Source: an uncultured Clostridia bacterium (lineage in GTDB: Bacteria > Bacillota > Clostridia > TANB77 > CAG-508). From it: a stretch of 52,505 nt of DNA. The DNA lies in assembly GCA_947626555.1 (NCBI GenBank), contig CANQSP010000063.1:1-52505 (forward strand), in the 5' to 3' direction. The notes under the pieces were generated by a model. The model saw only the letters and a list, made by a program, of their open reading frames with translations, did not search any database and had not been told where the DNA came from. The position numbers and the translations under genes were made by a program. Of this stretch, positions 13,016 to 51,487 are shown one piece after another. Each line of letters starts with the position of its first letter. The first letter of the stretch is position 1.

Positions 13016-13021
13016 ACTAAT

Positions 13022-23400: not shown

Positions 23401-25687
23401 ATCAAGCCAAATTGGAGACTACGGATATGTAACAATAACCGACAATACTATACAAAGAGTAACATATAGTGATAATACAACATCAAAAAATAGATTTGTA
23501 AATATTTCAGGAGAAAAAGAGGCAACTAATTATACAACAGTAGTAGAAGGAGGCAAGGAATATTATTTGCATATGGGGTATTACAAAAATGAAAAAACAG
23601 ATGAAGGAAATGATAAATTTACGATAAACAATATAGAGATAACTTTAAATGGGGAAGATTTATATAGAGAAGAAGTAATAACAGATAAATTTGGACAAGC
23701 ATTTTTAGAATTAGAACCAGCAAGATACACCATAACAGAAATAGAAGCACCAAAAGGCTATGAACTAAGTGAACCAATAATACATGCATTAGAAGCAGGA
23801 AAAACAAATGAAGAAACAATAATAGACAAGAAAAAATCAAAAGTAACAGTACATCACTATTTAAAAGGAGAATATGAAGAGGATGGAAGCAATAAGAAAA
23901 TAGCAGATGACGAAATTATTTATGGAACAAAAGATACAGAATATGAAACGAAACCAAAAGTAGGATTAGATATGTATGAATTAGCAAAAAGAGAAGATGG
24001 AGAATATGATATAGATGGAAATCCAAAAGGATTATATACTGATGAAGATCAAGAAATAACATATTATTACACTAAGAAGAAAGTATCATTAATAGTACAT
24101 CATTATATAGAAGGAACAATGACACCTGTGTTATTATCAAACGGAGAAAGAGCAAAAGACATTATATCAGAAAACGAAGAAGGTGCACTATATTCAACTA
24201 GTGCAATACCAGAAATTGCAGGAGAAGATGGTCAAGCATTAGATAATAAATATGAATTATTAAAGATGCCAGAAAATGCAGAAGGAAAATATCAATATCC
24301 AAAGGTAGAGGTAACGTATTATTACAAGTTAGTAAAAGGAGAAGTTATAATAAATAAATATGTAAAAGGAGAAGAAAAAACACCATTGTCAGGAGCAAAA
24401 TTTAAAGTAGAACAAATAGACGAAAGCCAAATACAAAATAATGAAAAAAATTATAATGTAGTAGATAAAACACAAAAAGTAAAACTAAGTAAAGAATTAA
24501 CTACAGATGAATTTGGTAAAGTTTCAATATATTTAGAAGCGGGAAAATATATAATAACAGAAATAGAAGCGCCACATGGATATAAATTACATGCTGAAGA
24601 AGTATATCAAATAGAAATAAACAACAGTACAGAAAGAGTAATACAAATAAATGTAGAAAATGAAAGACAAACTGGACAAGTAATAGTTAACCATTACATC
24701 TATGACAAAAATGCAGAAGAACCACATACAAATACAAGAGTACCTTTGGAAGGAGGCAAAGAATCAGAATCACAAACAATAACTGCGATTATAGGAAGTA
24801 TGTATGGAAGTGAGCCTTTAAAAAATTTGAAGGAAGGATATAAATTGTATGAAATACCTAAAAATAAAAGTGGTTTAATACAAGAAGGAGTAACAGAAGT
24901 AAATTATTATTATATATCATATGCAATTATAAATAGTGAGATAACGAAAGATGGTTCAGATAAAATATTAGCAAAAGATGAACCAATACAATATATGATA
25001 AACTACACATCAAATATTAGTAATTATGAAGGAAATGCAGTAGTTACAATAGTAGATACACTTCCATATGCACTGGATGTAGACAAAATGAAAGAATTAG
25101 CAACAGAAGAAGGAATAAATACTGAGGATTCAAATACAGATTGGCTAAAAGAGTTTTTACAAGAAGGAGAATATAAAGAGGAGTTAGTAGATGAAAGTGG
25201 CGATGATGCAAAAACATATACCATAACATGGACGCAAACAATAGAAAAAATTGATACATTAGGAAAAGATGAAACACAAGACATAACTATAGACAAAAAC
25301 ATAAAAGTAATATTCAAAGATGTAGATATAAAACAAACAAGCTTTACAAATACAGTAAAAGGAAAAATAACTTTAGAAGCAACAGAGCAAACAATGGAAA
25401 CAGAGCCGGCAACCCATGAAACAAAAGCAAATTATATAAAAGATGTAAAGGTAACGAAAAAATGGGAACATGGAGAAAACATTTATGAACGACCAAAGAG
25501 CGTAATAATACAGTTAAAAAATGGAGAAAAAGTAGTAGAATCATACAAATTAACAGAACAAGACAACTGGACACATACATTTACAGGCTTACCAAAATAT
25601 GATGAAGAAACAGGCGAAGAAATATATTATACTGTAGATGAACAAGCAGTAGGAGACGAAAGTTTGAAATATTATAAAAAGAAATAA
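14495..25687 (+). CDS. Giant surface protein 1 (SpaA/propeller/MucBP/Cna-B)
   Basis: At 3730 residues this is an exported adhesin-like protein. The ATG at 14495 is preferred because GGAGG (14482-14486) is 8 nt before it. Layout: basic tail (1-30); membrane anchor (about 33-55, LVLGSVLPIVMISIIVG); conserved region (60-1005); four SpaA-like domains (1007-1474); 14 propeller-type repeats (about 1489-2430); a bacterial-repeat domain; a SpaA-type domain split by three repeats of about 130 residues (about 2670-3050); two MucBP modules (TVHHYLKG, LIVHHYIEG); another SpaA and a third MucBP-like unit; a D2-like isopeptide domain (VTIVDTLPY); and a C-terminal Cna-B domain (VTKKWEHG). It ends LKYYKKK, before the last Cna-B strand, without LPXTG. 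A role in adhesion or self-assembly is inferred. Confidence 0.88.
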   Translation: MEAKQKQREMNVNKNEKDKKRKVKSILKPKFKYISKLVLGSVLPIVMISIIVGTIYEAFYNKRNDINNANIPPEIAVAMEYPQVEEGEEEIEISKEKYPNEEYNNDIYPYVQFDAFFLRDLNSDGYAEKIRGTCREIGQQDTLYIQLNVLTNGYLKEGATITLNGDRNFYFQTSIVKDNEIAENYVSTDTQVIKLNRIEAGKQKLLEGTIKENIGLNIGSYSKINSITFKGTHVETGSQGEDVKEIELEKTVQFKIDWHGKVQTKITNVTQTKYVEEIEDIEAQTIKIYFGVEIQEIKEQLNLSQLYIEGTIPEFNGYKPTKVYVEGTNVEYRYNEETMQLIAYTQAELNDVTKDITRSIARKNNYIIRLEYPMEAYRTLGKETFELKIPVKAYYEGYNNENYEFENPYKSNIATDIIILSYEKRLGKIAEFEITVGEYINNPVWDNAVLKRKPLNIYNGKSETEINDTYVVTWYARMGSEGKTTGIIMKETKTDSENTKVSDKFVKADNTEDSLEDITKNIGIYFEKVSTVLGKDGWIKVYDDETDNLVEEFNSSNWSNYTKTNPYIYKTPIRHIRIETSETNSQSSLEVYNIKELDDNAIINKYELEEFLNIKYIKSTVSGYVNQDANYINTDTYNAKYIEDTSIARVSIKENTLSTQEINKDNQLIIETIYFKNSNMEKWQNGSFLLKLPKEIVDVKIKDVVINQGLTKVVDYEKYVQAEVENGEEQEYIFIKIITENDIEENYRISINCDITVDSRITTKTGQIELYATNENGTTYLNNIEDKYDVNNNLNNQEKVNYSATNVSLISPNSLLISQIASDFDETNKEIVAPKIAEISKKSKTATITTQITNNYSRTVSNIAILGKIPYAGNTYVINGSDMGSNFNTTMVDTGITVPEQLKNVAKVYYSEIEDVTTDLEDAGNEWKEEGKVDFANVKSFLIILEDYELKNAESHKFSYKINIPGGIDYNKVSYSHIAVYFNLDTENGKYETQTEPTKLGFMIAGKYNVELTKYQKGSQSKVVSGATYSIMDETENIGELVENNISKTTDTEGKLTLENLYVGRTYTIKEIKSPQTYELNQNEIKFKTSEVGGILVLDKLEGTTDESVRKLEMEELQGEDYKLVVELEDEVKPNLCIKKVDQNTYDAIKGIKFKIQGKGFGETGKFVTTDSKGEVNLNGLYINEEYTIEEVKADGYYLAGNIKFLITHEDNYDIRIIDITEQMIYLLGAFEVTTENEIPTVNLAIQNESIPIYNLTINKIEKGKPDILLSGAKFKLTKDGKEIGRYETGKIAGTEQDGEPGKVTIQNLYAYEESKKIEQTYKLEEIVAPVGYSKVKDIEFKVTKGEDGNFSLETMQDLNYQVNKNNITITIEDSPSFKLTKQVAEGEENAGDLLPNTKFVIYNIDEGTVPARNSKGELIGEREIINGKEYNVLTTDNKGEITADLPQGLYKAVEVKASEDKYTLAKEKYFGIGASEQAKGEIITELAEVIGGDYSIESILETSDGGYWVTGNFTSLSVNLGKGINGNNVIIENMDQPTTDKSKDGMIVKYRKDGKVEWAKVIGTTGSDQIKLTSKTKDGGYLVVARFSSQGANLGKGTDGEDVIINGNEDVIIKYTNEGVVEWTKTIGITITSLIETSDEGYLVGGMDAGFRNNLGEGIDGNDVIINPNTYDDGYTWRPYSDGIIIKFRKDKKIEWVKQLVGDNSNDIISITETINEKYIINGYSRCRIMSAGDDVVIENVDEDAFTEFAIEFDDKGKMIWAKAFGFMGGSDVVGTNDGGFILAGYVLDEIILGKGVDGNDVIVDTNEDGENCLIIVKYTEEGLVEWKKEISGNIIYTMVSTSDGGLIAGIHSENNSINLGEGTDGKDVIVKNNGLDNTLIFKYNSNGKVEWVKVTEGYNIYSISETKDKEVLVGGSFGRVSINLGKGTDGEDVILSRLYNGNNEIIIKYNYIEAPKTRIEYAKKMEGDCKIVSMVETSDGGYIVGGYYESDSINLGEDIDGNEVIINKESGYYDEDGLIIKYNIKGQIEWVKTIEGEEADFITSVSETRDGGYIISGYSYTDNINLGEGIDGTDVILTKDYNYYDGIIIKYREDGKVEWAKNIGGEDYDCITSVIPTNDKGYIIGGYFTSYSIDLGEEIIYGSGSYNGSDALLIKYKEDGKVEWAKVLQGSKITSIAKTNDGGYIVGGNLYSNTLNLGKGIDGEDIIIENKAGPYLPDAMIIKYRADGIVEWARVVEGILNEEISTILATSDGGYIVGGDSNSSTLNLGKGIDGEDVVLNNNGNYDGLIVKYRKDGVVEWAKTIGEYDEEKITSISETNEGKYVVGGYFKSTSISLGKGADGKEITLTNNGYNKNDGMIIEYTKDGIVEWTKAIGGTNDDYVYSVLSTSNLDYIIGGNFASRKIVLDKDNNLINDNNTDNGMIIKIDVKVDVPQVKEVVVENEIKQFIITTKVKAMDGNKGGEISGEEVNPYETVKYGETAGTDNKTIVMRPYEGYDIAKVTINGERTLDYEKQGDGSYKLKPIENVQEDKHIVVTYSKTSNTLTLNKKAEDGETPLAGAKFRIEKMDEREVPQGVIKNIVDNGQPYYYADKQEEKQISGVLGKIEANGEYSEAIISNNEVTGIIKEDEMIDDASYYFVKTTAEDGSTYYEPTNSKTYQEAHGGSGDQKNTTAHSCFEINLTDYEGNVGVVINARVSSESSDKGYATITKDKTMPKYNSSETYHFMCISNKQNDANYTSQLLEGGNIYYLHLGYKKDSSIDKYEDRVIINSIKLYEATGKKYCFEEKGESYVSNNKDYLQTVANSYIPINLSEIPETQKVALVVNAQISSSSANYGYATITNDKTAPSYNNSNGRFIYISGEKQSDDYETILQGGRTYYLHLGYRNQYKAYGEQNVFTINSIKVYQTRTQEYNFETIEEVQENINPEVKKKYVSTNKGKPNTEANSYIPINLEGKTGKYNIIVNAEISSQIGDYGYVTITDNTIQRVTYSDNTTSKNRFVNISGEKEATNYTTVVEGGKEYYLHMGYYKNEKTDEGNDKFTINNIEITLNGEDLYREEVITDKFGQAFLELEPARYTITEIEAPKGYELSEPIIHALEAGKTNEETIIDKKKSKVTVHHYLKGEYEEDGSNKKIADDEIIYGTKDTEYETKPKVGLDMYELAKREDGEYDIDGNPKGLYTDEDQEITYYYTKKKVSLIVHHYIEGTMTPVLLSNGERAKDIISENEEGALYSTSAIPEIAGEDGQALDNKYELLKMPENAEGKYQYPKVEVTYYYKLVKGEVIINKYVKGEEKTPLSGAKFKVEQIDESQIQNNEKNYNVVDKTQKVKLSKELTTDEFGKVSIYLEAGKYIITEIEAPHGYKLHAEEVYQIEINNSTERVIQINVENERQTGQVIVNHYIYDKNAEEPHTNTRVPLEGGKESESQTITAIIGSMYGSEPLKNLKEGYKLYEIPKNKSGLIQEGVTEVNYYYISYAIINSEITKDGSDKILAKDEPIQYMINYTSNISNYEGNAVVTIVDTLPYALDVDKMKELATEEGINTEDSNTDWLKEFLQEGEYKEELVDESGDDAKTYTITWTQTIEKIDTLGKDETQDITIDKNIKVIFKDVDIKQTSFTNTVKGKITLEATEQTMETEPATHETKANYIKDVKVTKKWEHGENIYERPKSVIIQLKNGEKVVESYKLTEQDNWTHTFTGLPKYDEETGEEIYYTVDEQAVGDESLKYYKKK
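18955..21780 (+). repeat. Fourteen propeller-type protein repeats in giant protein 1
   Basis: Each repeat of about 60-75 residues ends in ETSDGGYIVGGYF-like sequence and contains NLGKGIDGEDVII and IIKYxxDGKVEWAK. Fourteen such motifs can be counted, matching two seven-bladed propellers. They resemble SBBP/delta-60-type repeats. Confidence 0.75.
22480..23648 (+). repeat. Three beta-sandwich-like repeats unique to giant protein 1
   Basis: Three units of about 100-140 residues share NSYIPINL (weaker in unit 1), VNAxISS, YGYxTIT, a variable strand, ISGEK, GGxxYYLHLGY and FTINSIxxY. They are inserted within a SpaA-like domain, whose start LTLNKKAEDGETPLAGAKF and end FLELEPARYTITEIEAPKGY lie on either side. 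A carbohydrate-binding-module-like fold is possible. Confidence 0.7.
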
Positions 25688-25746
25688 ATTAGCTGAAAAC
25701 GATTAAATAAGGTACGAATTTTAGTGTATAGCTTTCAAAGGCAAAA

Positions 25747-25788
25747 ATGAGAAATATACTAGAGTAAAATCTATATATTTCTCATTTT
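25747..25788 (+). terminator. Terminator of giant gene 1
   Basis: TGAGAAATATA pairs with TATATTTCTCA and a T run follows. The same hairpin follows the other two giant genes. Confidence 0.8.
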
Positions 25789-25900
25789 ATTTATGCCCTA
25801 AAAGCATTTATTCCCTAAGTAATAAAGCCATATATTACAAATAAAATCATTAAAGTATATGCAAATGTAAAATAAGGCAAACATTTTATTTCCGTAAATA
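25747..25900 (+). repeat. Intergenic 154-bp repeat, copy 1
   Basis: It is near-identical to 37023-37176. It covers the terminator, a conserved block (TAAAAGCATTTATTCCCTAAG, then TATATTACAAATAAAATC) and ends in the promoter half-site TTCCGTAAAT. No gene lies in 25688-25994. Confidence 0.85.
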
Positions 25901-25957: not shown

Positions 25958-25994
25958 AAATATAGTAATTACAGTAGATATGGAGGAGTAACTA

Positions 25995-26168
25995 ATGAGA
26001 GAAAAACGAGGAGAAAAGGATAATAGCATAAGTAAAGTTGAAACTGAAGTTTATACGAGTCAAAACAAAAATGAGTACATGAAAAAAAATAATAAAAGAC
26101 AAAAAGAATGTTATAAAAGGAGAAACTCATATTCAAGAAAAGAATGTTCGAAAGGGGATACGGATTAA
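25995..26168 (+). CDS. 57-residue leader ORF, frame-shifted N-terminal tail of giant protein 2
   Basis: A strong GGAGGA site precedes this ATG. The product, MREKRGEKDNSISKV and 42 further basic and polar residues, begins like giant protein 3 (MREKRRVKKDN), where the same segment is fused in frame to the rest. Here it stops with TAA overlapping the next ATG as TAATG, so the large frame may be read by translational coupling. It is either a genuine split (short leader peptide plus large protein) or a frameshift that removed the cytoplasmic tail. Confidence 0.55.
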   Translation: MREKRGEKDNSISKVETEVYTSQNKNEYMKKNNKRQKECYKRRNSYSRKECSKGDTD

Positions 26169-29100
26169 TGTATAAATCAAATATAGCAAAAACTTCAGTA
26201 AAATTAATAATACCAATATTAATAGTTGCAGTAATATTAGCTGTAATAATCACAGCAGTATTTAGCAATTTGCAAAATATTAATAAAAACATAGACCAAG
26301 AAATAGCAAGAACAATGGAATACCAAAAGGTTGAAGAAGGAGACGAAGCTATTCCAGATATGCCATATGTAACATTTGATGCGTTTTTCTTAAGAGATAC
26401 AAATGGGGATAATGAAGCAGAGCCATATAGAGGAACCTGTAGAGAAATAGGTTCAGAAGACACGCTATATATGGAACTTAAAGTAAATACGAATGGAAAA
26501 TTAGAAAATGGAAAAATAGAGATAAATGGAGATAAAAATTATTATTTAAGAACAGCAATTGTAAAAGATGATGAGATAAAATCAAACGTAATAACACAAG
26601 ATGCAAGTGAAATATTATTTAATGAAATGAAAAATGGAACGCAAAAGTTATTAACAGCAACAGTAAGAAGTGGAGATTATACATATTCTTCAGGAAAAAT
26701 GTCTGCAATAGGAAACAATATAAAAAAATATAGTAAAGAGAATACTATAGTATTTACAGGAGAACATGTATCAGATGAAGGAGTAAGAACTAAAGTAAGA
26801 AAAGAAGTAAAATTTAATGTAGATTGGCATGGAACAACTGGAGCACAAATAACAAATATATATCAAACATATGGTGTAGACGGAATTTTAAATGAAGAAA
26901 AAGGAGAGTTATCATTAGATTTTACCGTATCAACACAAGAAACACAAGAAACACTAATATTAAAAAGTAATGTAGTTAAAGGAACAATACCACAATTAAG
27001 TGGATATTCACCAATAAGAGTTGAATTAAAAAGTAGTAATACAACATTAAATTATGACCAAAATACAAGAGAGTTTACGGTAGTAAGAGAGGCAACATTA
27101 GATGAAGAATCAGGAAATGTAAGCAATAGATTGAGCACATCAAATAGTTATAAAATAAAAGTAGTATATCCGATAGAAGCATATAAAGCACTAGGTACAA
27201 ATACAGTAGAAATAAGAATACCTGTAGAAACATATTATGAAGGTTACAACAATGCAAATAGTGGATATGAAAGTATACATGTATCAAATAAAGCAGAGGC
27301 AACAATAGTAGCAACATATAGAAGACCACAAGGAAAAGAAGCAATATTTAATGTATATGTAGGAGAATATGTATATGAACCATATGAAAGATATATGGTA
27401 TCAAAGAATAAACCATTAAGAATATATAATGGAATATCCGAAGCAGAGACAAATGATATTTATACTGTAAAATGGGAAGCATATACAGGTACAACAGAAA
27501 AAACTAGCGGAATAATAATGAAAGAGACGGAAAATGAAAGCAAGCAAGTATCAGATGAATTTATAAGAACAGATGAAAGTACAGTTAGCATGGAAGATGT
27601 AACACAAAATATAGGAATATATTTTTCAAGTCCAGCAAATATGTTAGGAGAAGAAGGCTGGATAAAAGTATATAATGATGAAACAAACGAATTAATAGCA
27701 ACATTTACAAAAGAAAATTGGAATAAATATAATGCGGAAGATGCATATACATATAGTGAGCCAATAAAGCATATAAGAGTTGAAACAAGTGAGATAAAAG
27801 CAAATGCAGGTATATCTGTATATAACATAAAAGAATTGAACGATAATATTATTACACAAAATTTTGCAAAAGAAGAATTTGATAAATTGCAGTATATAAA
27901 AACAACATTAGTAGGTTATGTAGGTGAAGAGCGTATAAATTCAGATACAAAAAATGCATATTATGAAATTCCTATGTCTATTGCAGATGTAAGTGTAAAC
28001 AAAACAGATTTATCAACCCAGGCAACAGAGAAAGGTTATAGAATAACAATAAGTACTAAACAAGGTATATATCAAAATATAATTGGATGGACTAATGGAA
28101 CATTTTTATTAAAGCTACCAAAAGATATACTAGATTTAGAAATAAATGATGTAGATGGTAACGTAAATATTACAAATTATGAACAATATGAATTAGATGG
28201 AGAAAAGTTTATAAAAATAAATGTAAAAAATGAAAAAGAGGACAAATATATTATAACAGTTGATTGTAATATAACTCCAGATCCAAGAGTAGAGACAAAA
28301 CCAATAACAATAGAATTATATGCATCTAACGAATATAATAAAAATTATTATTATAAAGCAGAAGATATATATGATGTAAATGACAATTTAAACGTAACAG
28401 AACAGGTACATCATAGTACTAAAACGATACAATTAATATCGCCAAATACACTACTTACAAGTCAACTTATAAGAAAATATAACGCAGAAGAAACAGAAAC
28501 AGTAGCACCAAGAATAGCAATACTTTCAAAAGAACAACAAACAGCAGAAATAGCAATAAGTTTAAATAACAACTATATGAACGAAATAAGTAGGATAAAA
28601 ATAGTAGGAAAAATACCTTCAATAGGAAATACGTATACAATAAATGGAGACGATATGGGTTCAAATTTTGATACTACTATGAAAGAGTCAGGAATAAAGC
28701 TACCAGAAGAACTTAAACAAAAAGGAGTAAAAGTATATTACTCAACTTACCAAGATGCAGATAAAGATAATATGGATGAATGGACAGAAAATCCAAACTT
28801 TGAAGAAGTAAAAAGCTTTATGATAGATTTCCAAGATGCATCAATGGGAGAACAAGAAAAGTATGAAATAAGTTATGAAATAAATATCCCATCAGGATTA
28901 AATTATAACCAAGTAGCATATAGTCATCATGCAGCATATTTTAGCTTGCAGACAAATAGTGGATTATATGCAACAAGTGTTGAGCCAAACAAATTAGGAA
29001 TTATGATAGCAAGGCTATATGATGTGGAATTAACAAAATATCATAAAGGAATAGGTAAACTAGTACCAGGTGCAACATATAGTTTGCAAGAAGAAGGAAA

Positions 29101-30541
29101 AAAAGAGAGTTTAACAAAGGTAACAAATGAAAGTGGTAAGCTGTTAATAGAAAATTTATATGCAGAAAAGACATATATATTAAAAGAAATAAAAAGTCCA
29201 GATGAATATGAATTAAATGAAAATGAAATAAAATTTACTACAAAAGAAGAAGAAGGAAATTTAAAATTAGAGATTATTTCTGGAATAACTAAAGAAAGTA
29301 GTATAACGCAAGAAAATGGAAAAGATAAGGTTCAAATAGAAGTTGAAGATGAGGTAAAAGTAAAATTACACATAACAAAAACAGAGCAAGAAACAGGAAA
29401 TGCAATAATAAATGTAAGGTATAAAATAACAGGAAAAGGTTTGCTAAATTCAGGGGAGACATTTGCAACTAATTTACAAGGGCAAATAAACTATAATGGT
29501 TTATACATAGGACAGGAATATACCATTGAAGAAATAAAAGCAAAGGGTTACTATTTAACGAAACCAATAAAATTAACAATAACATCAGATGGTCATGGAA
29601 ATTATACGGAAAACATAAATGGAGGCACAGTAAAACAACATTCAATTAGTAAAACGGACGAAATACCTACTGTTCATATAGAGTTAGAAAATGAAAAAAT
29701 ACCAACATATAACTTAAAGATACAGAAACTAGAAAAAGATACCACAAAACCAATAGAAAATGTAAAATTCACATTATATAAAGGGGAAGAAAGACTAAAT
29801 ACTTATACAACAGATGAAACAGGAATAATAGAAATAAAAGGATTATACCAGTATGTAGCAGAAAAGGAAGTAGAGCAAACATATACATTAAAAGAAGTGG
29901 TGGTACCAGAGGGGTATGCAAAAGTAGATGATATAACTTTCTATGCAAGTGAGCAAGAAGGTGTATTAAAGTTGACTATAAATGGAGGAACAATAAAAGA
30001 GCAGTCTACAACAGAAGATACAATAACTATGACAATAGAAGATGAACCAACATTTGTATTAATAAAACAAGATGGAGAGACAAAAGAAGTATTACCAGGT
30101 GTAAAATTTGCAATATATGATTATGAAACAGGAGAACCTGCAACAGATGTAAATGGAGAAATAATAGGAAAAGAAGAAATGATAAAAGGGGAATATTATA
30201 ATGTAGTTACAACAAATGAGAGAGGAAAAATAACAGCAAATTTACCACAAGGATTATACAAAGCGGTAGAATTAGAAACATTTGAACAATATGAACTAGG
30301 AGTAGAGGAAGATCGAACAAGCTATTTTGGAATAGATGAGTCAAAAGAAGGAGTAGTAAAATATGGAAAACTATTTGAGGAAGGATTTAGTGAAATAGAC
30401 GGTTTACAGGCACTAACTTGCACATTAACTACAGATGGAAGCTTTATAGTAGGAGGATGGTTTTCTGAGACTTTAAATGTAGGTAATAGAGTACTAACAA
30501 CGTCAAATATATCAGATGAAGAACGGATATCCGAATTATGA
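26168..30541 (+). CDS. Giant surface protein 2, 5' part (interrupted by frameshift)
   Basis: This is 1457 residues from the ATG at 26168 (AAAGGGG about 10 nt upstream). A membrane anchor occupies about residues 9-33 (IIPILIVAVILAVIITAVF), with almost no basic tail in this frame. The conserved region runs to about 950 and matches protein 3 closely (DAFFLRDTNGDNEAEPYRGTC, VDWHGTTGAQITN). Four SpaA-like domains follow (about 952, 1065, 1180 and 1295-1390), the last three starting with LHITKTEQETG, YNLKIQKLEKD and TFVLIKQDGETK. The first propeller repeat then begins (TTDGSFIVGGWF), but the frame ends after a 1-nt shift near 30516-30541. The continuation is the open frame at 30516-36962. The break may be a real mutation or an assembly error. 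Confidence 0.85.
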   Translation: MYKSNIAKTSVKLIIPILIVAVILAVIITAVFSNLQNINKNIDQEIARTMEYQKVEEGDEAIPDMPYVTFDAFFLRDTNGDNEAEPYRGTCREIGSEDTLYMELKVNTNGKLENGKIEINGDKNYYLRTAIVKDDEIKSNVITQDASEILFNEMKNGTQKLLTATVRSGDYTYSSGKMSAIGNNIKKYSKENTIVFTGEHVSDEGVRTKVRKEVKFNVDWHGTTGAQITNIYQTYGVDGILNEEKGELSLDFTVSTQETQETLILKSNVVKGTIPQLSGYSPIRVELKSSNTTLNYDQNTREFTVVREATLDEESGNVSNRLSTSNSYKIKVVYPIEAYKALGTNTVEIRIPVETYYEGYNNANSGYESIHVSNKAEATIVATYRRPQGKEAIFNVYVGEYVYEPYERYMVSKNKPLRIYNGISEAETNDIYTVKWEAYTGTTEKTSGIIMKETENESKQVSDEFIRTDESTVSMEDVTQNIGIYFSSPANMLGEEGWIKVYNDETNELIATFTKENWNKYNAEDAYTYSEPIKHIRVETSEIKANAGISVYNIKELNDNIITQNFAKEEFDKLQYIKTTLVGYVGEERINSDTKNAYYEIPMSIADVSVNKTDLSTQATEKGYRITISTKQGIYQNIIGWTNGTFLLKLPKDILDLEINDVDGNVNITNYEQYELDGEKFIKINVKNEKEDKYIITVDCNITPDPRVETKPITIELYASNEYNKNYYYKAEDIYDVNDNLNVTEQVHHSTKTIQLISPNTLLTSQLIRKYNAEETETVAPRIAILSKEQQTAEIAISLNNNYMNEISRIKIVGKIPSIGNTYTINGDDMGSNFDTTMKESGIKLPEELKQKGVKVYYSTYQDADKDNMDEWTENPNFEEVKSFMIDFQDASMGEQEKYEISYEINIPSGLNYNQVAYSHHAAYFSLQTNSGLYATSVEPNKLGIMIARLYDVELTKYHKGIGKLVPGATYSLQEEGKKESLTKVTNESGKLLIENLYAEKTYILKEIKSPDEYELNENEIKFTTKEEEGNLKLEIISGITKESSITQENGKDKVQIEVEDEVKVKLHITKTEQETGNAIINVRYKITGKGLLNSGETFATNLQGQINYNGLYIGQEYTIEEIKAKGYYLTKPIKLTITSDGHGNYTENINGGTVKQHSISKTDEIPTVHIELENEKIPTYNLKIQKLEKDTTKPIENVKFTLYKGEERLNTYTTDETGIIEIKGLYQYVAEKEVEQTYTLKEVVVPEGYAKVDDITFYASEQEGVLKLTINGGTIKEQSTTEDTITMTIEDEPTFVLIKQDGETKEVLPGVKFAIYDYETGEPATDVNGEIIGKEEMIKGEYYNVVTTNERGKITANLPQGLYKAVELETFEQYELGVEEDRTSYFGIDESKEGVVKYGKLFEEGFSEIDGLQALTCTLTTDGSFIVGGWFSETLNVGNRVLTTSNISDEERISEL

Positions 30542-36962: not shown

Positions 36963-37022
36963 ATTAATTAAATGTGTTAAAGAAGAGACGAGCCTCGGTG
37001 TTCGACCTTAAAACACAAAAAG

Positions 37023-37066
37023 ATGAGAAATATACTAGAGTAAAATCTACATATTTCTCATTTTAT
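37023..37066 (+). terminator. Terminator of giant gene 2
   Basis: ATGAGAAATAT pairs with ATATTTCTCAT and a T run follows. It is the same hairpin as after giant gene 1. Confidence 0.8.
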
Positions 37067-43300: not shown

Positions 43301-46300
43301 GAGCCTAAGACGGACTTAGAAGACTATGAACTTGCAAAAGATGAAAATGGAGAGTTTTTAACGCCTCATAATGCATCAGGTTTATACCAAGAAGGAACAC
43401 AGGAAGTAATATATGAATATGAAGAAAGAAAAATACCGTTAACAGTACATCATTATATAGAAGGAACGACAAGCAAAGTACCAATGCCAGATGGAACATT
43501 AGCAGAAGATGTAAAAGACGAAGGAAAAGAAGGAACTCAATATACAACAAATGCAATTATACCAGATAAGAAATATGAATTAGCATTGACACCAGATAAC
43601 TATATAGGAACATATCAAAAGCCAGAAGTAGAAGTAACATATTATTATAGAGGAAAACAATCACCAGGAGTAGTAGTACATCATATAGATACAGATACAA
43701 AAGAAGAAGTTGCAAAAGATGAAGTAATACCACAAGTTGGAACAGCTAGATATGGGGATTCATATACAACGAACGTTGCAAGAGATATTTTAGATACATA
43801 CGAGTTTGCAAGTAAAACACCAAATTGGGAAGGTGAAATGACAGAAGAAAAGATAGAAGTAACTTATGAATATCATATAAAATATAATATGCAAATAACA
43901 AAGAGAAAAGAAAATACAACAGATACAATACAAGGGGTAGGATTTAACTTAAAAGGAGAAGGATTATCACCAGAAGGAGTAAATTATATAACAGATGAAA
44001 ATGGAAATATAAACCTACAAGGTTTAGTTGCAGGAGTAGAATATACTATTTACGAAACATATACACCAAACAATTATGTATTGAATGAAGAGCCAATAAA
44101 ATTTAAAGTAACAAGAACCAAAGAAGGAATACTAGAATTGCAAGAGCAAGAAGAAGGGCATAGAATAAAGAATGTAAAAATAGATGAAGTGCAACAAGGA
44201 ATAGTGCCACAAATAACTGTGGATATTGAAAATACACCAAAATATGAATTAAACATAGTAAAATATAAGAAAGGAACGAATGATAAAGTAAGTAATGTAA
44301 CCTTCAACATAAAAGGAGAAGGTTTAGTAAGCGAGGGAGTAAATTACACAACAGATAATAACGGAACAATAAAAATAAGTAATTTAATGCCAGAAAAGGA
44401 ATATGAAATAAAAGAAATAAAAACAAATATTGATTATATGCCAAGCAATCAAATAGTTAGGTTTAGCACACATTTAGAAAATGGAGTATTAACGGCACAA
44501 GAATTAACAGAAGAAATAGCAAGAAAAATAGAGGTAACTCAGGTAGCAGAAGGAACTTTCCCACAGGTAGAAGTACAAATAGATAATGAACCAAAATATG
44601 CTATTCAAATTACAAAGTATGAAAAAGGAACTAATAATACAATACCAAAAGTAAAATTTGTAGTTACAGGAAAAGAGATGGGAGAAACAGGCAGAACATA
44701 TATAACAGATGATAATGGAATAATTACAATTCCAAAGCTAGAACAAGGCGAAACATACACAATAAAAGAAGTATATGCAAAAGGATATTATCTAAATGCA
44801 AAAGAATTCACAGTAAGAGTAGATAGAATAGGAGAAGATTTGCAAATACAGTATAATGGAGGAGAAACAAAAGGTAACCCAATAATATTACAAGAAGACA
44901 ATAAGCCTCCTGTAGTTCAAATTAATTTAGAAAATGAAAATATACCAAAATATAGCTTACAATTAACAAAAGTAGGAGAAGAAGCAGAAAACTTATTAAC
45001 AGGGGCAAAATTTGAAATAACAGGAGAAGGAAGAGAACTAAATGCAGAAAAAAAATATGTAACATCAGAAAGTGGCATTATAACAATAGATAACTTATAT
45101 GTAAATGAAGAATATACATTAACAGAAACACAAGCTCCAACAGGATATAAATTAAGTGAAACTCCAGTAAAATTTAAAGCAACACAAACAGATGGAAATT
45201 GGAATTTACAATTAACAGAAGGACAATTCTATGGAGAAACTCAAATAGAAGGCTCAACAATAAAAGTAAAGTGGCAAGATGAGACATTATTTAAATTAGA
45301 GAAAAGAGATGCAGAAACACACGAATTATTACAAGGAGCAAAATATACAATAAAGGACATGAATGGAAATTACGCAAAAGATATAGCAGGGAATGAAATA
45401 GGAAAAGAAGAAGAAATAAATGGACAGCAAAAGAAAGTACTAACAACAGACGAACAAGGATCTCTTACAGCAGAGATACAACCAGGAACATACCAAGTAG
45501 AAGAAGTTGAAGCACCATATGGATATGAATTGCCAGATGAAACAACTCAATACTTTGGAATAGACCAAGCTGGTAGTTTTGACCAAAAATTAAAAAGTAT
45601 TTGGGCAAATGATATAGTAGCAATAAGTTCGAGTGCTCGAGGTGCATGGGATTACTACTGTGGCAGGAACTATGATATAGATCAAGTTGTTTCTACTGTA
45701 GATGGTGGTTTCTTGGTAACATTAATTAGTGATAAAAATGTGAATGAGATTGAAATTGATAGCCAAGTATTTGGTCTTCCTAGGGATGCAAATTCATATA
45801 GTTCATATTATATAATTAAATTTAGCCAAGATAAAAAAATAGAATGGGCAAATTATGTAGGAATGAAAAAAGATAGTAAATCTAAAATAGCTGAAATTAT
45901 TGATGGAGAATATGTTCTAATAGGAAATACAAGCAACGATATACGTTTTAATGATACGGACGAACCAACCAAAATGACATCAAATTCAGGAGCAACAATA
46001 ATAAAGTATAATACTCATGGGAAAAGAGATTCTGTAAACTTTTTAGGCGAAGGAAATGTAGAACTATATGCAATATCTTCAACAGTAGATGGTGGGTATA
46101 TAATAGGAGGAAAAATAACTAGTGGAGAATTAGTATTAGAAGGACACACATTAGAGCAAGGTAATATATTAATTAAATATAATAGGGATAATAAAGTAGA
46201 AAATGCATGTAATTTAGAATTAGATATAAAAAGCATTGTAACAGCATTAGACGGAGGCTATATTATCGGAGGAACTCAAAGTTCTATTGTAAAATTAAAA

Positions 46301-49300
46301 TCCGACTTAACAAAAGAGTGGTCAGATAAAATAGAAAATGTTAATGGCAATAATTGTACTGAAGGTGTAATTACAAGTATAGAGCAAACAGAAGACGAAG
46401 GAATAATTGCAGGGGGAAATTATGATAAATTTGCATTTGTAGTTAAATATAATTCAGAAGGAACAATAGAATGGTCTAGGCAAATAGGTAGTGGTAAGAA
46501 AAATTCAGAGGTAAGAGTAATTCAAGCTTTTGATGGTGATTTTTTAGCTACGTTTGAAGGATATATTGTAAAGTATGATAGTAAAGGAGAAGAGGTTTAC
46601 GTTAATGACGATTTTACTAGTGGATATACTGAAAATATTATAATTGAAATAGCTAAAACACATACTGGAACTTATATAACTGGAGCTAAACATCAAGAAG
46701 GACTTATTGAATATAAGGATCAAATAGCAACAGAAGAATATATAAAGTCAAATGAAAGATATTATGATAGCGGTACATGTGTATTAGCAACAGAAGATGG
46801 AGGTTTTATAACGTGGAGTAAAGGATATACTGGCTTCACAAAATATGATATCAATGGAAAAGAAGAAAATAATTATTATGGAAGTAGTATAGGGCAGATA
46901 ATTGAGCTATCAAGTGGAAATTATATCTCAGCATATAACGATAACGACACTTATGGAAACATACATATATTAAACATAGAAATGGAAAAATCTGTTAATA
47001 AGCCTCAATGGGAAAAGGAAATAATAGGTGATGCTACTTCTAATAGTATAGCAAAAACTTCAGATGGAGGATTTGTTATAGGAGGCTCTCTATTTGGTGA
47101 AACATTGGCATTAGACAATGGAAAAAGCATTAAAAAACCTAAAGGACAAGAGGGAGTAGGACTAATAATAAAGTATAAACAAACAAGTGAAGGAAATTAT
47201 GAAGTAGATTGGTCAAATACCATTGAAAAATATGGAGAAACTGGAAATGAAGTTAGAATTCTATGTATAGATGGAACTAGTGATGGAGGTTGTATAGCTG
47301 GAGGAGTATATATGGATAATGATTTGAATATAGGCCAAGGGTTACTGGTTAAATATAATAAAGAAGGAGAGCAGGAATGGATAAAAAATATTGAAATGAA
47401 TAATGAAGACTTTGTAAAATATTGTTTTATAACTCATGTATCAGAATGTTCGGAAGGAGAATATATAGTAGGAGGTTTTTTAGATGAGAATTATATGGTT
47501 TTAGACGGTAACGAAAATGTAATTATACTTAAGTATAAAGAAAACGTACAAGATTTAAATAATAGAAGCATTGATTTACAATGGAAACGATTTACTTTGG
47601 GAGAAACTATTAGTAGTGATGAAATTTACTTAGGTAATTCCCATGAATATGCTTCAATTCATGATGAATATTCTAGCACATTTGTTCCAACGTTGTACTT
47701 TACCGAAGATGGAGGTGTTGTAGAGTGTGATAGTAATGGAAACGTAGTTAAATATGATTCTAATGGTAAAAAGGAAACTATATATAAAAATGCTACAGAT
47801 GATATATTTGCGTATGTAGTACAAACTAAATGTGGAAAATATTTTATTATTAATCAAAATTATAAACATGAAAAAATAGAATTAGCACCAATAACTGATG
47901 GAAATACAGTAATCCCACAAACCCAAAGAATAACCTTTGAAGACACTAAAAAAGAATACATAATAGATACAAAAGTAGAAGGTGGCGGAGGAAGTGTTTT
48001 AGGGCAAGACCAAGAAATATATGAAAAAGTAAAATACAAAGGAACTTCAATACGAGATATAACAGCAACACCGGAGCAAGGCTATGCAGTAGAAAGCATA
48101 ACAGTAAATGGACAAGAAGTGTTATTTAAAGGTGGAGAAAATGTACCAGTAACATTGGACAAGTTTACGAATATGTCAGAAGACAAGCATGTAGTAGTAA
48201 AATTTACAGCAAACCCAGCAGAAGTAGTAGTACACCATTACTTAGATGGCACAGAAGGAAATGAAGGAGGACCAACACCTGTTGCAGAAGATGACTATAT
48301 ATACGGACAAACAGGCAAACATTATGAAACGCACGAAAAAGACCTAGATAAATATGTAGTAGTAGAAGAAAGAAAACCAGATAAGCCAAGTGGAGAAATG
48401 ACGGAAGGAACAACAGAAGTAACATATTATTACAAACCAAGAGATGCAAAAGTAATAGTTCATCACTACGAATATGGAACAGACGTAGAAGGACAAGAAT
48501 TAGTAACAGTGGCACAAGATGAAACAATAAATGGAAAAGTAGATGAAACATATAATACACACTATAAAACAGAACAAGAGCTAGATGGAAATTATAGAGT
48601 AGTAGAAGCAGAAATACCAGGAAATAGCAATGGAAAAATGACAAGAAATCAAATAGAAGTAACATACTACTACGAAAAAATAAAGAAAGGAAAAGTAACA
48701 GTACATCATTACATAGAATATTCAGAAGAACCTGTTGATCCAGAAAATCCAGAAGATGTACTAGAGGGAGAAGTAGGAACACATTATGACACACATCCAA
48801 GAGAAAACTTAGAAGAATACGAATTAGTAACAGATAGTATGCCAAGTAATGCCCAAGGAAACTATGAAGAAGAGCAAAAAGAAGTAACATATTACTATAG
48901 GTTAAAAGAAACAAAAGTAATAGTGCACCACTATAAAGATGGAACAGGAACAGAGGAAGTACCGTTACAACAAATATCGCCAGATGAAACAATAAAAGGA
49001 AGAATAAAAGATAGTTACAAAACAGCACCAAAAGAAGGAATAGGGAATTATGAGGTAATAAGAGAAGAAGAAAAGTGGCCAACAAATGCAGAAGGAAATA
49101 TGGAAAAAGATACAATAGAAGTAACATACTATTATAGGTTAAAACAAGCAAATATAGTAGAAAACACATTAACAAAAGAAGGAACAGAAAAAATGGTACT
49201 AGAAGACGAAAAAGTGCAATACACAATAACATATAAAGCAGAAATAAAAGACTATACAGGAAATGCAAAAATAACCTTAATAGATGAATTGCCATATAAC

Positions 49301-51487
49301 ATAGACTTATCAAAATCAAACATAATGGAAGGCACATATAACGAATTAGAAAAAACAATAACATGGGAAATAGAAATAGACAACTTAGATGCATATGGAG
49401 ATAAGAGTGAATACATAGAAGTATCAAGAAAAATAGAGTTAGTATTTACAAATATGGATTATACTCAAAAAACATTTACAAATAAAGCCAAAGGAACATT
49501 AGAGTTATTAGATGTAGAGCAAAAAGTAGAGATACCAGAAGCAACAAAGGAAACAGAGTCAGACTTTAAAACAAGTGTATTAGCTACAAAATATTGGGAA
49601 CATGGAGAAAATAAATTTAAGAAACCATCAAAAATAGAAGTACAGTTGAAAAAAGGCGGAGAAGTAGTAAACACACAAATATTAACAGAAGAAAATAAAG
49701 CATATGGAGACGAAACAATATGGGAATATGAATTTACAGACTTAGAAAAATATGATGCAGAAGGAAATGAAATAGAGTACACAATAGAAGAACAGGCAGT
49801 AGAGGGAGAAGACTTAAGCTACTACCAAAAAGAAATAGATAGCGAAGATGGAATAATAAGAAACACATTTAACGGACCAGTAATAACAATAAGTAAAAGT
49901 TCAACAACAGAACATGAATTAGACTATGTAGTAGAAAATGAAAAAATAACATATACCATAACAGTAACAAACTCTGGACAAATGGCAAAAGAAGTTTTAG
50001 TAAAAGATACAATACCACAAGGAACAACATTTGTAGCAGGAAGTATAAAAGTAGGAAATGTGCCTATAGAAGAATATGAAGGAGAGGCAATCCAAGGAAA
50101 CAAAGAAAATACACAAACACAACTAGAACAAGGAATAAAGCTAAATATGGAACCACAAGAAAGCATAAATATATCTTTTGAAGTACAAGTACAAGATTTA
50201 GAAAATGGTCAATATATAGAAAACGTAGCAACAATAAATAAATCACCAGATGATCCAGAATCACAAGATGAACCATCAAATAAAGTATTAAATCTATATT
50301 CAGAAACAACCATAACAAGTCAAAAATATGCAGTAACGGAAAGAGAATTGGACTATGTAATAGAAGGCGAAACAATAACATACAACATAATGGTAATAAA
50401 TGAAGGACAGATAGGAAAAGAAGTAGTAGTAAGCGATACAATCCCACAAGGAACAACCTTTGTAGAAGGAAGCATAAAACTAAATGGACAACCTTTATAT
50501 AATGATGCAGATAAAACAATACCAAAAACGCAAGAAGACTTAAAGAATGGAATAACAATATATGCAGAGCCTTCAAAAGGTGCGGTGGGTGGAATGCAAA
50601 ATTATAAAATACTAAGTTTTGAAGTAACAGTAGACTTTGCAAGAGAAGAATTTACTATACAAAATACAGCAACAGTAGATGATACACCAACAGAGCAAAT
50701 AGAAATACCATATAAGCTAGAGGGAAAAGTAACAAGTGGAATAGAAAAAGATGGAACAGATATAATAACATCAAAAGATGAGGAAATAAACTATACAATA
50801 AAATATAATGCGCAAGTACGTAAATATGAAGGAAATGCAATAGTTACAATAGTAGATACTCTTCCATATGCACTAGATGTAGACAAAATGAAAAAATTAG
50901 CAACAGAAGGAGGAATAAATACTGAGGATTCAAATACAGATTGGCTAAAAGAGTTTTTACAAGAAGGAGAATATAAAGAAAAATTAGTAGAAGGAAGTAG
51001 CGATGGAGCAAAAACATATACAATAACATGGACACAAACAATAGAAAACATTGATACCTTAGGAAAAGAAGAGGCGCGTGACATAACTATAAACAAAAAC
51101 ATAAAAGTAATATTCAAGGATGTAGATATAAAAGAAAAAAGCCTTACAAATACAGTAAAAGGAAAAATAGAATTGCAAGCAACAGAGCAAACAATAGAAA
51201 CAGAGCCAGCAACACATGAAACAAAAGCAAATTATATAAAAGATGTAAAAGTAACGAAAAAATGGGAACATGGAGAAAACATTTATGAAAGACCAAAGAG
51301 CGTAATATTACAAGTAAAAAAAGGAGACCAAGTAATAGAATCGTACAAGGTAACCGAACAAGACAACTGGACTCATACATTTATAAACTTACCAAAATAT
51401 GACGAGGAAACAGGAGAAGAAATATACTATACTGTAGACGAACAAGAAGTAGAAGGCGAAAGCTTGAAGTATTATAAAAAAAGATAA
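37331..51487 (+). CDS. Giant surface protein 3 (SpaA/propeller/MucBP/DUF11/Cna-B)
   Basis: 4718 residues. GGGGGA precedes the ATG at 37331; an in-frame ATG at 37418 has an even better GGGAGG site and is the alternative start. Layout: basic tail (1-35); membrane anchor (about 40-60, LLMPILIVVILLAVIITALF); conserved region (to 975); four SpaA-like domains (980-1433); seven propeller repeats (1443-1840); bacterial repeat; three MucBP (1958-2180); five SpaA-like domains (2183-2757); 14 propeller repeats (2757-3523); bacterial repeat; four MucBP (3629-3939); a D2-like domain; a complete Cna-B (ending IIRNTFNGP); two DUF11-like domains (DTIPQGTTFV twice); a second D2-like domain; and a truncated Cna-B ending LKYYKKR. 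No LPXTG. It is probably a membrane-tethered fibrous adhesin (inference). Confidence 0.9.
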   Translation: MREKRRVKKDNMNIKENKVHKKYSVEGGLMSKLKIAKPSVKLLMPILIVVILLAVIITALFSNLQNINKNIDPEIARTMEYKKVKEGDEAIQGTQYVEFDAFFLRDTDGNNEAEPYRGTCREIGSEDTLYMELKVKTNGTLQNGKIEINGDKNYYLQTAIVKDNEIKANSITENATEILFNDIRSGTQKLLTATVRSGDYTASSRKSEAIGNNVKNYSKENTIVFTGDHVSSEGVKTPIRKEVKFNVDWHGTTGAQITNVYQTNKLETAIDNEKGELNLDFVVSTQETQKQLILKNNEVEGIIPQLSGYSPIRVQLLNSNATLSYDKSARKFTIRKVSVLNEESGNVSNSLSTSNQYNVRVTYPLDAYNALGADTVEIKIPIETYYEGYNNTNNGFKNPYVSDKAEATIVATYRNPQGERAIFNVYVGDYAYKPYGRYMVSKNKPLRIYNGISEKETNDIYTVKWEAYTGTTGKSNGIIMKETENESKQVSDEFIITDANSISMESLTNNIGIYFSSPVNMLGEDGWIKIYDDETNSLIATFTKENWSKYSENNPYRYSEPIKHIRVETSATNADASMSVYNIKELDDAIIIQSFAKDEFDKLQYIKSTLAGYVDGEHINTDIENAKYEEPISVANVKVSKTDLSTQVTENSYKIYIEPETNEEYNESKWVNGAFLLKLPQDIIDIEINNVSTGNSRVSATYSQYEEDGIQYIKVDTENEKEEVYSITVDCNITPNPTIETKTETIELYASNEYNTNYYYKQEDSYDVNNNLNVNEYVNKTSTNIQLISPATLITSQIAREYDGTGSETIAPKIANVSKGQNTAKVVINVKNNYSNTVERVKIVGKIPTSGNTYTINGHDMGSNFDTTMTEAGIQLPEGFEQKGVKVYYSTYEDGDKDNIDEWEETPNFDEVKSFMIDFQDVKLEVNEEFEISYEINIPSSLNYNQVSYSHHAIYFSLQTNSGLYPTSTEPNKLGFRIAKLYDLELTKYHKGIDNKIVQGATYSIQEEGEEAKTRVTNENGKITLNDLYAEKTYTIKEVKSPSEYALNEDEVKFTTKEENGQLTLKMLSENTKGNRIVQENGRDKVEIDVEDEVLAKLKIIKTQKDTTNKLKNVRYKLTGRGMPSTGRILVTNIDGEINISGLFIGEQYTLEEIKAEGYYLAEPIQFTITANGNGNYTEEISGDTVKEHSISKANEIPTLTIEIANEKIPTYNLVINKVVKDEQTPIAGAKFALYKDGERIATYITDAEGKININGLYEYVEAKKVKQTYVLKEVGAPEGYAKVEDITFYASMQEGVLKLTIEGGTIKEQHTVAKEDTIQGEAVQENTITITVEDSPTFVLTKEDGKTKEVLPGVKFAIYNYKTGEPATDAKGQIIGEKQRINGKYYYVVTTNEQGKITANLPQGLYKAVEIETYEEYELGTEEERTDYFGIGESQEEVIEYQASLLSTISGITYRKIISTLDKGFLAVAEFYKDIELTNGQKITNTGNFDTVLIKYNANKKIEWTRVIGGKGYDYINDIIQLPDGSYIAGGQVGSSNVIINEDGTIIEDDSKYVGNNCYAILSKYKMNGDVEWSKTIGSNYTYDSISSIELTNDEGYIIGGTFGTGNMNIKVGDERRPISGSDGKLIKFNKDDKVDWIQSIGEKDGEYFKIEDIQQTEDEGYIIAGSFSEETLTLPKGQVIKNEYTSIDEGYVSYNYYDAVIIKYKANKEIEWINQVGGRGNQNCTDIFQTADGGYIVGIQGDYIITLSNDEELKKSGIIKYRENGEIEYVNSTSSISSVEKTSDDGYIICGGIFHFIEKYSIDNVLEWKLNTDISYVTEIDKNQYIGVYIANMYEIGEKVTKPKIPDSHQVTVDNNLKEFKITTEVKVVDGKKGGSILGEGSTLDNPYETVQYGKESIKPITMTPHQDYSISKITINEKEVEFNVEKDGTYTLPQFKNVTENKHIVVTYILTSEKEPEVIVHHYKKDTQERVAVDEIYKGKVGEPYRTEPKTDLEDYELAKDENGEFLTPHNASGLYQEGTQEVIYEYEERKIPLTVHHYIEGTTSKVPMPDGTLAEDVKDEGKEGTQYTTNAIIPDKKYELALTPDNYIGTYQKPEVEVTYYYRGKQSPGVVVHHIDTDTKEEVAKDEVIPQVGTARYGDSYTTNVARDILDTYEFASKTPNWEGEMTEEKIEVTYEYHIKYNMQITKRKENTTDTIQGVGFNLKGEGLSPEGVNYITDENGNINLQGLVAGVEYTIYETYTPNNYVLNEEPIKFKVTRTKEGILELQEQEEGHRIKNVKIDEVQQGIVPQITVDIENTPKYELNIVKYKKGTNDKVSNVTFNIKGEGLVSEGVNYTTDNNGTIKISNLMPEKEYEIKEIKTNIDYMPSNQIVRFSTHLENGVLTAQELTEEIARKIEVTQVAEGTFPQVEVQIDNEPKYAIQITKYEKGTNNTIPKVKFVVTGKEMGETGRTYITDDNGIITIPKLEQGETYTIKEVYAKGYYLNAKEFTVRVDRIGEDLQIQYNGGETKGNPIILQEDNKPPVVQINLENENIPKYSLQLTKVGEEAENLLTGAKFEITGEGRELNAEKKYVTSESGIITIDNLYVNEEYTLTETQAPTGYKLSETPVKFKATQTDGNWNLQLTEGQFYGETQIEGSTIKVKWQDETLFKLEKRDAETHELLQGAKYTIKDMNGNYAKDIAGNEIGKEEEINGQQKKVLTTDEQGSLTAEIQPGTYQVEEVEAPYGYELPDETTQYFGIDQAGSFDQKLKSIWANDIVAISSSARGAWDYYCGRNYDIDQVVSTVDGGFLVTLISDKNVNEIEIDSQVFGLPRDANSYSSYYIIKFSQDKKIEWANYVGMKKDSKSKIAEIIDGEYVLIGNTSNDIRFNDTDEPTKMTSNSGATIIKYNTHGKRDSVNFLGEGNVELYAISSTVDGGYIIGGKITSGELVLEGHTLEQGNILIKYNRDNKVENACNLELDIKSIVTALDGGYIIGGTQSSIVKLKSDLTKEWSDKIENVNGNNCTEGVITSIEQTEDEGIIAGGNYDKFAFVVKYNSEGTIEWSRQIGSGKKNSEVRVIQAFDGDFLATFEGYIVKYDSKGEEVYVNDDFTSGYTENIIIEIAKTHTGTYITGAKHQEGLIEYKDQIATEEYIKSNERYYDSGTCVLATEDGGFITWSKGYTGFTKYDINGKEENNYYGSSIGQIIELSSGNYISAYNDNDTYGNIHILNIEMEKSVNKPQWEKEIIGDATSNSIAKTSDGGFVIGGSLFGETLALDNGKSIKKPKGQEGVGLIIKYKQTSEGNYEVDWSNTIEKYGETGNEVRILCIDGTSDGGCIAGGVYMDNDLNIGQGLLVKYNKEGEQEWIKNIEMNNEDFVKYCFITHVSECSEGEYIVGGFLDENYMVLDGNENVIILKYKENVQDLNNRSIDLQWKRFTLGETISSDEIYLGNSHEYASIHDEYSSTFVPTLYFTEDGGVVECDSNGNVVKYDSNGKKETIYKNATDDIFAYVVQTKCGKYFIINQNYKHEKIELAPITDGNTVIPQTQRITFEDTKKEYIIDTKVEGGGGSVLGQDQEIYEKVKYKGTSIRDITATPEQGYAVESITVNGQEVLFKGGENVPVTLDKFTNMSEDKHVVVKFTANPAEVVVHHYLDGTEGNEGGPTPVAEDDYIYGQTGKHYETHEKDLDKYVVVEERKPDKPSGEMTEGTTEVTYYYKPRDAKVIVHHYEYGTDVEGQELVTVAQDETINGKVDETYNTHYKTEQELDGNYRVVEAEIPGNSNGKMTRNQIEVTYYYEKIKKGKVTVHHYIEYSEEPVDPENPEDVLEGEVGTHYDTHPRENLEEYELVTDSMPSNAQGNYEEEQKEVTYYYRLKETKVIVHHYKDGTGTEEVPLQQISPDETIKGRIKDSYKTAPKEGIGNYEVIREEEKWPTNAEGNMEKDTIEVTYYYRLKQANIVENTLTKEGTEKMVLEDEKVQYTITYKAEIKDYTGNAKITLIDELPYNIDLSKSNIMEGTYNELEKTITWEIEIDNLDAYGDKSEYIEVSRKIELVFTNMDYTQKTFTNKAKGTLELLDVEQKVEIPEATKETESDFKTSVLATKYWEHGENKFKKPSKIEVQLKKGGEVVNTQILTEENKAYGDETIWEYEFTDLEKYDAEGNEIEYTIEEQAVEGEDLSYYQKEIDSEDGIIRNTFNGPVITISKSSTTEHELDYVVENEKITYTITVTNSGQMAKEVLVKDTIPQGTTFVAGSIKVGNVPIEEYEGEAIQGNKENTQTQLEQGIKLNMEPQESINISFEVQVQDLENGQYIENVATINKSPDDPESQDEPSNKVLNLYSETTITSQKYAVTERELDYVIEGETITYNIMVINEGQIGKEVVVSDTIPQGTTFVEGSIKLNGQPLYNDADKTIPKTQEDLKNGITIYAEPSKGAVGGMQNYKILSFEVTVDFAREEFTIQNTATVDDTPTEQIEIPYKLEGKVTSGIEKDGTDIITSKDEEINYTIKYNAQVRKYEGNAIVTIVDTLPYALDVDKMKKLATEGGINTEDSNTDWLKEFLQEGEYKEKLVEGSSDGAKTYTITWTQTIENIDTLGKEEARDITINKNIKVIFKDVDIKEKSLTNTVKGKIELQATEQTIETEPATHETKANYIKDVKVTKKWEHGENIYERPKSVILQVKKGDQVIESYKVTEQDNWTHTFINLPKYDEETGEEIYYTVDEQEVEGESLKYYKKR
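45600..47900 (+). repeat. Fourteen propeller-type protein repeats in giant protein 3
   Basis: Motifs run from STVDGGFLVTLI to QTKCGKYFIINQ; several of the middle ones are weak, but the count by eye is 14. A separate array of seven lies at about 41660-42850. Confidence 0.6.

Follow-up and report, generated by a model that had tools for sequence, protein, structure and literature searches.

Truncated Cna-B domains at the ends of giant clostridial surface proteins: candidate halves of a naturally split isopeptide domain

In a Cna-B domain the Lys of the first strand is reactive, a Glu is catalytic, and the Asn partner of the Lys is borne by the last strand, strand G. The subject of this study is a set of three large surface-protein genes of an uncultured gut bacterium of the class Clostridia, each ending in a Cna-B domain that lacks strand G (a stub); they lie in tandem, all on the + strand, in a window of 52,505 nucleotides (the whole stretch of DNA analyzed), which is contig C63 of a 1.45-megabase draft genome, G000 (65 contigs, 76% complete). 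A comparable division of the domain has been engineered: in SpyTag/SpyCatcher and related splits, a Cna-B domain without its last strand likewise keeps Lys and Glu, and the last strand sits on a separate chain and bears the Asn, or an Asp in SpyTag (PMC5487036; see also PMC6539128, PMC8878318). In the first of these reports, tag/catcher pairs were made by cutting Cna-B at the loop before strand G, a bond formed in two of the four cases tried, and mutants of Lys, Glu or Asn yielded no product (PMC5487036). Those pairs were cut by engineers, whereas in the present case the pieces occur naturally on distinct genes, catchers being numerous and tags few, and the pairing is proposed from sequence.

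Strand complementation also occurs in nature, and chaperone-usher pili are built by donor-strand complementation. In these pili, as here, an incomplete immunoglobulin-like fold is completed by the N-terminal segment of the next protein (PMC9715654); they differ in that the bond proposed here is covalent, the family is Cna-B and the surface is of Gram-positive type. The archaeal thread Saci_0406 combines natural strand complementation with a proposed intersubunit isopeptide link, but its proteins are unrelated, a single subunit repeats, and the link joins Asn57 to the N-terminal amino group two subunits away; of the natural cases that we found it comes closest, though both its proteins and its chemistry are different (PMC9715654). 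Among solved structures, only the Cna-B region of the Staphylococcus aureus collagen adhesin (PDB 1d2p, 1d2o) was matched at an E value of ≤0.01, both by the complete domain and by the stub profile, and its domains are complete, unsplit and in one chain. Sortase-anchored Gram-positive fibers share with the present system the Cna-B domains, the sorting-signal-like end seen in a G008 protein and in unsplit homologues, and sortase matches; the stub proteins, however, have no sorting signal, and their anchoring would be in trans. Searches of open-access literature, most subscription journals lying outside their scope, listed no natural split Cna-B domain or tag/catcher pair.

From the truncation, its conservation, an orphan last strand and unsplit homologues that match both halves, all read in sequences, we infer secretion, wall anchoring, docking in trans, a covalent bond and a role in display. 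Our favored interpretation, which we hold to be somewhat probable, is that nature has split a Cna-B domain in two: the stub would be its catcher half, and its last strand would be supplied in trans by a secreted fiber protein of the type encoded on contig C25.

Truncated Cna-B domains in the window and in related genomes

The three genes and their parts are arranged as follows.

14480..25687, + strand: stub protein 1 (3735 aa), with an N-terminal hydrophobic segment, SpaA and MucBP domains, a D2-like domain and a C-terminal truncated Cna-B domain
14600..14671, + strand: hydrophobic segment at the N-terminus of protein 1, either an anchor or a signal peptide (by eye)
24908..25432, + strand: domain preceding stub 1, which we take to be D2-like
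25433..25687, + strand: stub 1, truncated Cna-B without strand G; the VTKKW Lys and the YTVDE Glu are present, end LKYYKKK
25744..25788, + strand: terminator-like hairpin 3' of gene 1 (z -6.6)
26144..30541, + strand: first open reading frame of protein 2 (1465 aa), the N-terminal part
30516..36962, + strand: second open reading frame of protein 2 (2148 aa), with stub 2 at its end
36708..36962, + strand: stub 2, truncated Cna-B, end LEYYTKK
37020..37064, + strand: terminator-like hairpin 3' of gene 2 (z -5.7)
37331..51487, + strand: stub protein 3 (4718 aa); it contains a single complete Cna-B internally and has a truncated one at the C-terminus
49565..49880, + strand: the complete Cna-B within protein 3, with IIRNTFNGP as its last strand, serving as internal comparison
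51233..51487, + strand: stub 3, truncated Cna-B, end LKYYKKR
51545..51589, + strand: terminator-like hairpin 3' of gene 3 (z -5.7)

All three stubs stop directly past strand F. An earlier note on this DNA had placed them within a few bases of the coordinates above, and it was right about their three ends, their intact bond-forming Lys and Glu, the continuation of the complete domain of protein 3 to IIRNTFNGP and the absence of LPXTG past any window stub. Its count of three giant proteins holds for proteins 1 and 3, but the middle one is two open reading frames separated by a frameshift at 30516-30541, where they overlap; a genuine frameshift and an assembly error are not distinguishable there. 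In a protein-level scan covering proteins 1 and 2 (protein 3 not included), the match to the Pfam Cna_B model (PF05738, 87 positions) ends at positions 71 and 72, respectively, with bit scores of 53.9 and 54.8 versus a curated cut-off of 22.3; in a DNA-level search with the same model, all three stubs exceed the cut-off and their matches end at positions 72, 75 and 77. None of the three frames past each stop codon carries the domain on, ruling out a hidden continuation, and the C-termini of the stub proteins have neither LPXTG nor a hydrophobic tail nor a sorting signal: the chains finish at the stub. The hairpins 3' of all three genes are strong and alike (z -5.7 to -6.6).

A search of the same genome with stub 1 gave 33 matches, 20 of which were read as loci, the other 13 (E value of 1e-7 or weaker, on C15, C29 and C12) falling outside that reading. 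Thirteen genes among these loci have a truncated Cna-B C-terminus: three on C63, three on C5 and one each on C14, C11, C28, C6, C32, C15 and C8, the front part of the C8 gene probably lying at the contig end of C53. Relatives were searched as well (56 genomes, then 27 of the genus), and five stubs were found in G008 and seven in G020. All 25 stubs end 3 to 10 residues past the conserved Tyr-Tyr of strand F, so that homologues ending near the same point, which the earlier note had proposed to look for, exist in two other genomes; such recurrence across three assemblies rules out an accident of assembly. The last strand with its partner Asn is absent from every stub (0/25) but present in 130 of the 133 other domains examined. 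Family-wide, 14 of 390 genomes have a match at an E value of ≤1e-25, eight of them outside the genus; one locus was read from each of seven of these eight (G383 and further matches of G326, G401 and G149 being left unread), and all domains in these loci are internal and complete, with no truncated copy.

Some of these loci have peculiarities of their own. Two stub genes stand in tandem on C5 (L072, 418-5050 and 5161-9805), 95.8% identical and with the same frameshift before the stub in both, which points either to duplication after the frameshift or to a programmed frameshift. Stub 2 is almost identical to the C14 stub (L070, 2296-2553) despite differing proteins in front, and the stub module may have been swapped or converted between genes. 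On C17 (L080, open reading frame 155-8395), a member of the stub subfamily has about 159 aa of another domain past the stub point, an extension that may carry its own replacement strand.

What could preserve a domain deprived of its last strand? The earlier note saw selection in the agreement of three paralogues, an argument that is weak by itself, since a single origin is possible: in a tree of 51 domains (84 columns), 23 stubs and five complete domains from the same three genomes form one group (95/99), many forks of the tree being unresolved and two stubs missing from it (one member of the C5 tandem and the C8 fragment, whose length was insufficient). The agreement of the window genes partly reflects shared descent, and it is therefore their long preservation that needs explaining. 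Constraint on the stubs is better evidence of selection. Lys and Glu are present in all 24 stubs in which both columns are readable, Glu in 25 of 25, and the ratio of nonsynonymous to synonymous substitution rates (dN/dS) is 0.17 to 0.53 in 12 hand-chosen pairs. Among complete domains, 126 of 130 rows have both residues and the remaining four have neither; the count omitted duplicates and any fragment in which the column of either residue was missing, although a single domain accounts for two of the four rows, and a small number of complete domains may also have been counted twice. Core positions of strands A and F, with buried positions guessed and no coordinates used, are as hydrophobic in stubs as in complete domains. 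In the D2-like domain before the stub, read by eye, Lys and Asn are both lost in the C28 protein, and Lys is lost with Asn retained in the C39 protein of G020.

An orphan last strand and unsplit homologues

The earlier note had also proposed a genome search for an NTF/NTY-type strand, and pattern scans did find Cna-B last-strand motifs with no Cna-B domain in front. A scan for [IV]TNT[FY] gave 22 matches, mostly chance or nonsurface ones, and yielded the first of these orphans; a looser strand-pattern scan added none. They lie on C25 in G000, on C70 in G008 and at two places in one C76 protein of G008. The C25 and C70 proteins are orthologues (50% identity) in which the motif IVIxNTYIGPEI, IVIINTYIGPEI in C25 and IVITNTYIGPEI in C70, stands 37 to 39 residues past an N-terminal hydrophobic segment and is followed by a DUF11 array. 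A candidate donor strand was thus found on a separate polypeptide in two of the three stub-bearing genomes. Between the two orthologues, 11 of 12 strand positions are identical versus 3 of 22 in the preceding aligned linker; an AMAE motif is also common to both, as is the end of the hydrophobic segment. Read by eye, the C-terminus of the C70 protein consists of SIKTG followed by hydrophobic and then basic residues; the C25 protein is cut by the contig end. Stub and tag proteins share a motif past the N-terminal hydrophobic segment (PELARAMEY / TRAMAEEYQ / LAKAMAEAAQ in L218, L219, L073, L076 and the window), perhaps a processing signal.

The residues at the joint behind the strand differ between domain types. 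Nine joints after Cna-B domains read xGP, and 18 of 19 joints between DUF11 repeats read x[EK]P, as counted with one regular expression, ignoring one spurious row and counting as post-Cna-B a G019 joint (L153) labeled "other" by the script. The N-terminal orphans of C25 and C70 read xGP, as Cna-B joints do. At C76, the first place follows a SpaA-like domain and the second a DUF11 domain.

Two proteins match stub proteins over one half and tag proteins over the other. In the 4476-aa frame of C12, also in G000, residues 40 to 2283 align with a C5 stub protein (61%), and with C32 and C17 at 59 to 60%, while residues 2355 to 4470 match the tag protein of G008 at 42%, the match starting at residue 75 of the latter; between the two halves, at the joint, lies a complete Cna-B domain. 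In G009, numbered here by the fetched part of a 5701-aa frame, residues 3 to 2870 align with the C11 stub protein (45%), residues 3084 to 3171 with stubs, reaching their ends or stopping at most one residue short, and residues 3176 to 4670 with the C25 tag protein (39%), from residue 86 of that protein onward. When strand is aligned with strand, the ends of the stub proteins and the starts of the tag proteins fall at one and the same place in the domain, the loop preceding strand G. A single-chain fiber seems to have been split at the site where tag/catcher pairs are engineered. The earlier note would have read a homologue with a complete last strand and a wall anchor as a sign that the stubs are artifacts. 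C12 has no stub and does combine a complete last strand with a wall-anchor-like C-terminus of the SIKTG variant, which by itself shows no artifact; to judge from these alignments, C12 and G009 look like the unsplit, single-chain form. The interpretation of the earlier note is thus supported in part: a candidate donor in two of three stub genomes, together with homologues matching both halves, lends strong support from sequence to its idea of a natural split catcher, with no donor found in G020.

That negative result in G020 is compatible with another kind of partner: the stub might catch a strand of another organism or of the host (an S-layer, a mucin, another bacterium), and if the N-terminal segments stayed in place as anchors, it is the stub that would face outward, at the far end of the protein. 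We regard such capture as very improbable, since this genome itself encodes a matching strand, and the protein bearing it aligns with the half of an unsplit homologue that the stub proteins lack.

A proposed assembly and its alternatives

If the stub and the C25-type strand are indeed a catcher and its tag, assembly could run as follows. The stub would fold without strand G, which in complete homologues bears the Asn partner of the Lys; the strand would come in trans from near the N-terminus of the C25 (G000) or C70 (G008) protein; and the two would recreate the Cna-B/DUF11 junction that is a single chain in unsplit homologues. A Lys-Asn isopeptide bond would then form spontaneously with the assistance of Glu, a covalent step suggested by the retention of Lys, Glu and Asn. 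The unsplit form would have its N-terminal half distal and its C-terminal half at the wall-anchor-like signal, and the split form would restore the order of tip, D2, stub joined to strand, DUF11 stalk and wall. N-terminal tips without a wall anchor of their own could then be clipped onto one wall-anchored stalk, and they would be interchangeable, since 13 stub genes and one tag gene were found in this genome. That one wall-anchored stalk with an N-terminal tag strand covalently holds any of more than 12 giant catcher-ended tip proteins is a tentative extension, which we consider quite possible but would not yet call probable.

Strand complementation could also proceed without a bond, as in chaperone-usher pili, with Lys and Glu kept for fold stability only. 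The split geometry is that of donor-strand complementation and the two residues may be retained for packing, but complete relatives without Lys are also without Glu (the four rows of 130 noted above, in which one domain appears twice), the pattern that a chemical unit should show, and the Asn is kept in the tag strands; a purely noncovalent union seems improbable to us.

How the stub proteins are held at the surface depends on their N-termini. A signal peptide that is cleaved off is a likelier identity for the hydrophobic segment there than a membrane anchor, because C12 has a stub-type N-terminus and yet an anchor-like C-terminal signal; once the segment is cleaved, only attachment in trans would keep the stub proteins from being lost. 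The alternative is fission without rejoining, in which the stub is a tolerated leftover, the orphan strand a scar of shuffling or the first strand before a DUF11 array, and the stub proteins are held by their N-terminal segment. All stub proteins of the genome with a readable N-terminus do begin with a long hydrophobic segment (by eye), and strand segments similar to the orphan recur between DUF11 repeats. Set against this are the constraint on the stubs (Lys and Glu in 24/24, dN/dS of 0.17 to 0.53), the xGP signature of Cna-B joints in the N-terminal orphans, the better conservation of the orphan strand than of its linker, and the C12 termini just described. We judge fission without rejoining to be unlikely, though it deserves more weight than the other alternatives.

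Several observations weigh against a split catcher, and some of them favor such a fission. The N-terminal segments may be uncleaved anchors after all, and all truncations could descend from one shared origin. Three stubs lie downstream of frameshifts (the C5 tandem pair and window protein 2). Three nonstub domains without a recognized last strand, one on C17 and two in G019, keep Lys and Glu (3/3), and retention is therefore not proof. Because DUF11 repeats resemble each other, several alignment registers are possible, and in the comparisons of C25 with C12 and of C70 with G009, the strand-to-strand register is not the top-scoring one. The SIKTG end was read by eye, and the similar tail of C12 falls below the cut-off of the Pfam anchor model (E value of 0.5). 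The C76 strands may belong to the preceding SpaA-like and DUF11 domains, and the second C76 place is the one exception among the 19 DUF11 joints, reading xGP. No orphan strand appeared in the pattern scans of G020, which has seven stubs in an 88%-complete assembly. In the 24 genus genomes without detected stubs, nine pattern matches include six in surface proteins, all six directly behind a complete Cna-B domain; orphans thus make up four of nine strand motifs in stub genomes versus none of six elsewhere (P = 0.09, not significant; the two groups were scanned with slightly differing patterns), or two of seven versus none of six without the C76 places (P of about 0.27, by hand), an enrichment that is suggestive only.

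Were the split-catcher interpretation true, the SpyTag/SpyCatcher principle would have evolved naturally, an intramolecular cross-link having been turned by evolution into one between proteins. It would represent a new, enzyme-free attachment of surface proteins with swappable tips and an anchoring route for proteins without their own sorting signal. Isopeptide tag/catcher pairs are widely used protein-engineering tools, and the genes would be a source of new catcher and tag sequences.

Rejected strand donors, anchoring genes and neighboring features

Two other segments were considered as strand donors and rejected. The N-terminal motif VxFDAFF, which resembles SpyTag, also occurs in stubless C12, which has the same N-terminus, and the stub proteins of C14, the C5 pair and C6 are without it. 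The segment INNTYNPELARAMEY past the hydrophobic segment has a variable Asn (INKNIDP in proteins 2 and 3, FKTSLNP in C11), and C12 has a version of it too.

The genome has eight sortase matches (C19, C45, C16, C11, C36, C14, C4 and C27) and 12 weak matches to the anchor model, one of which passes the cut-off; surface proteins on C3 and C12 end in the SIKTG variant. In G019, the search rows report for contig C2 one open frame that is 25,428 codons long and includes Cna-B domains. Judged by eye, the genes upstream of the three window genes (4004-14183) appear to encode a phosphatase, a protein of von Willebrand type, a kinase-like protein of 1657 aa and a patatin-like lipase.

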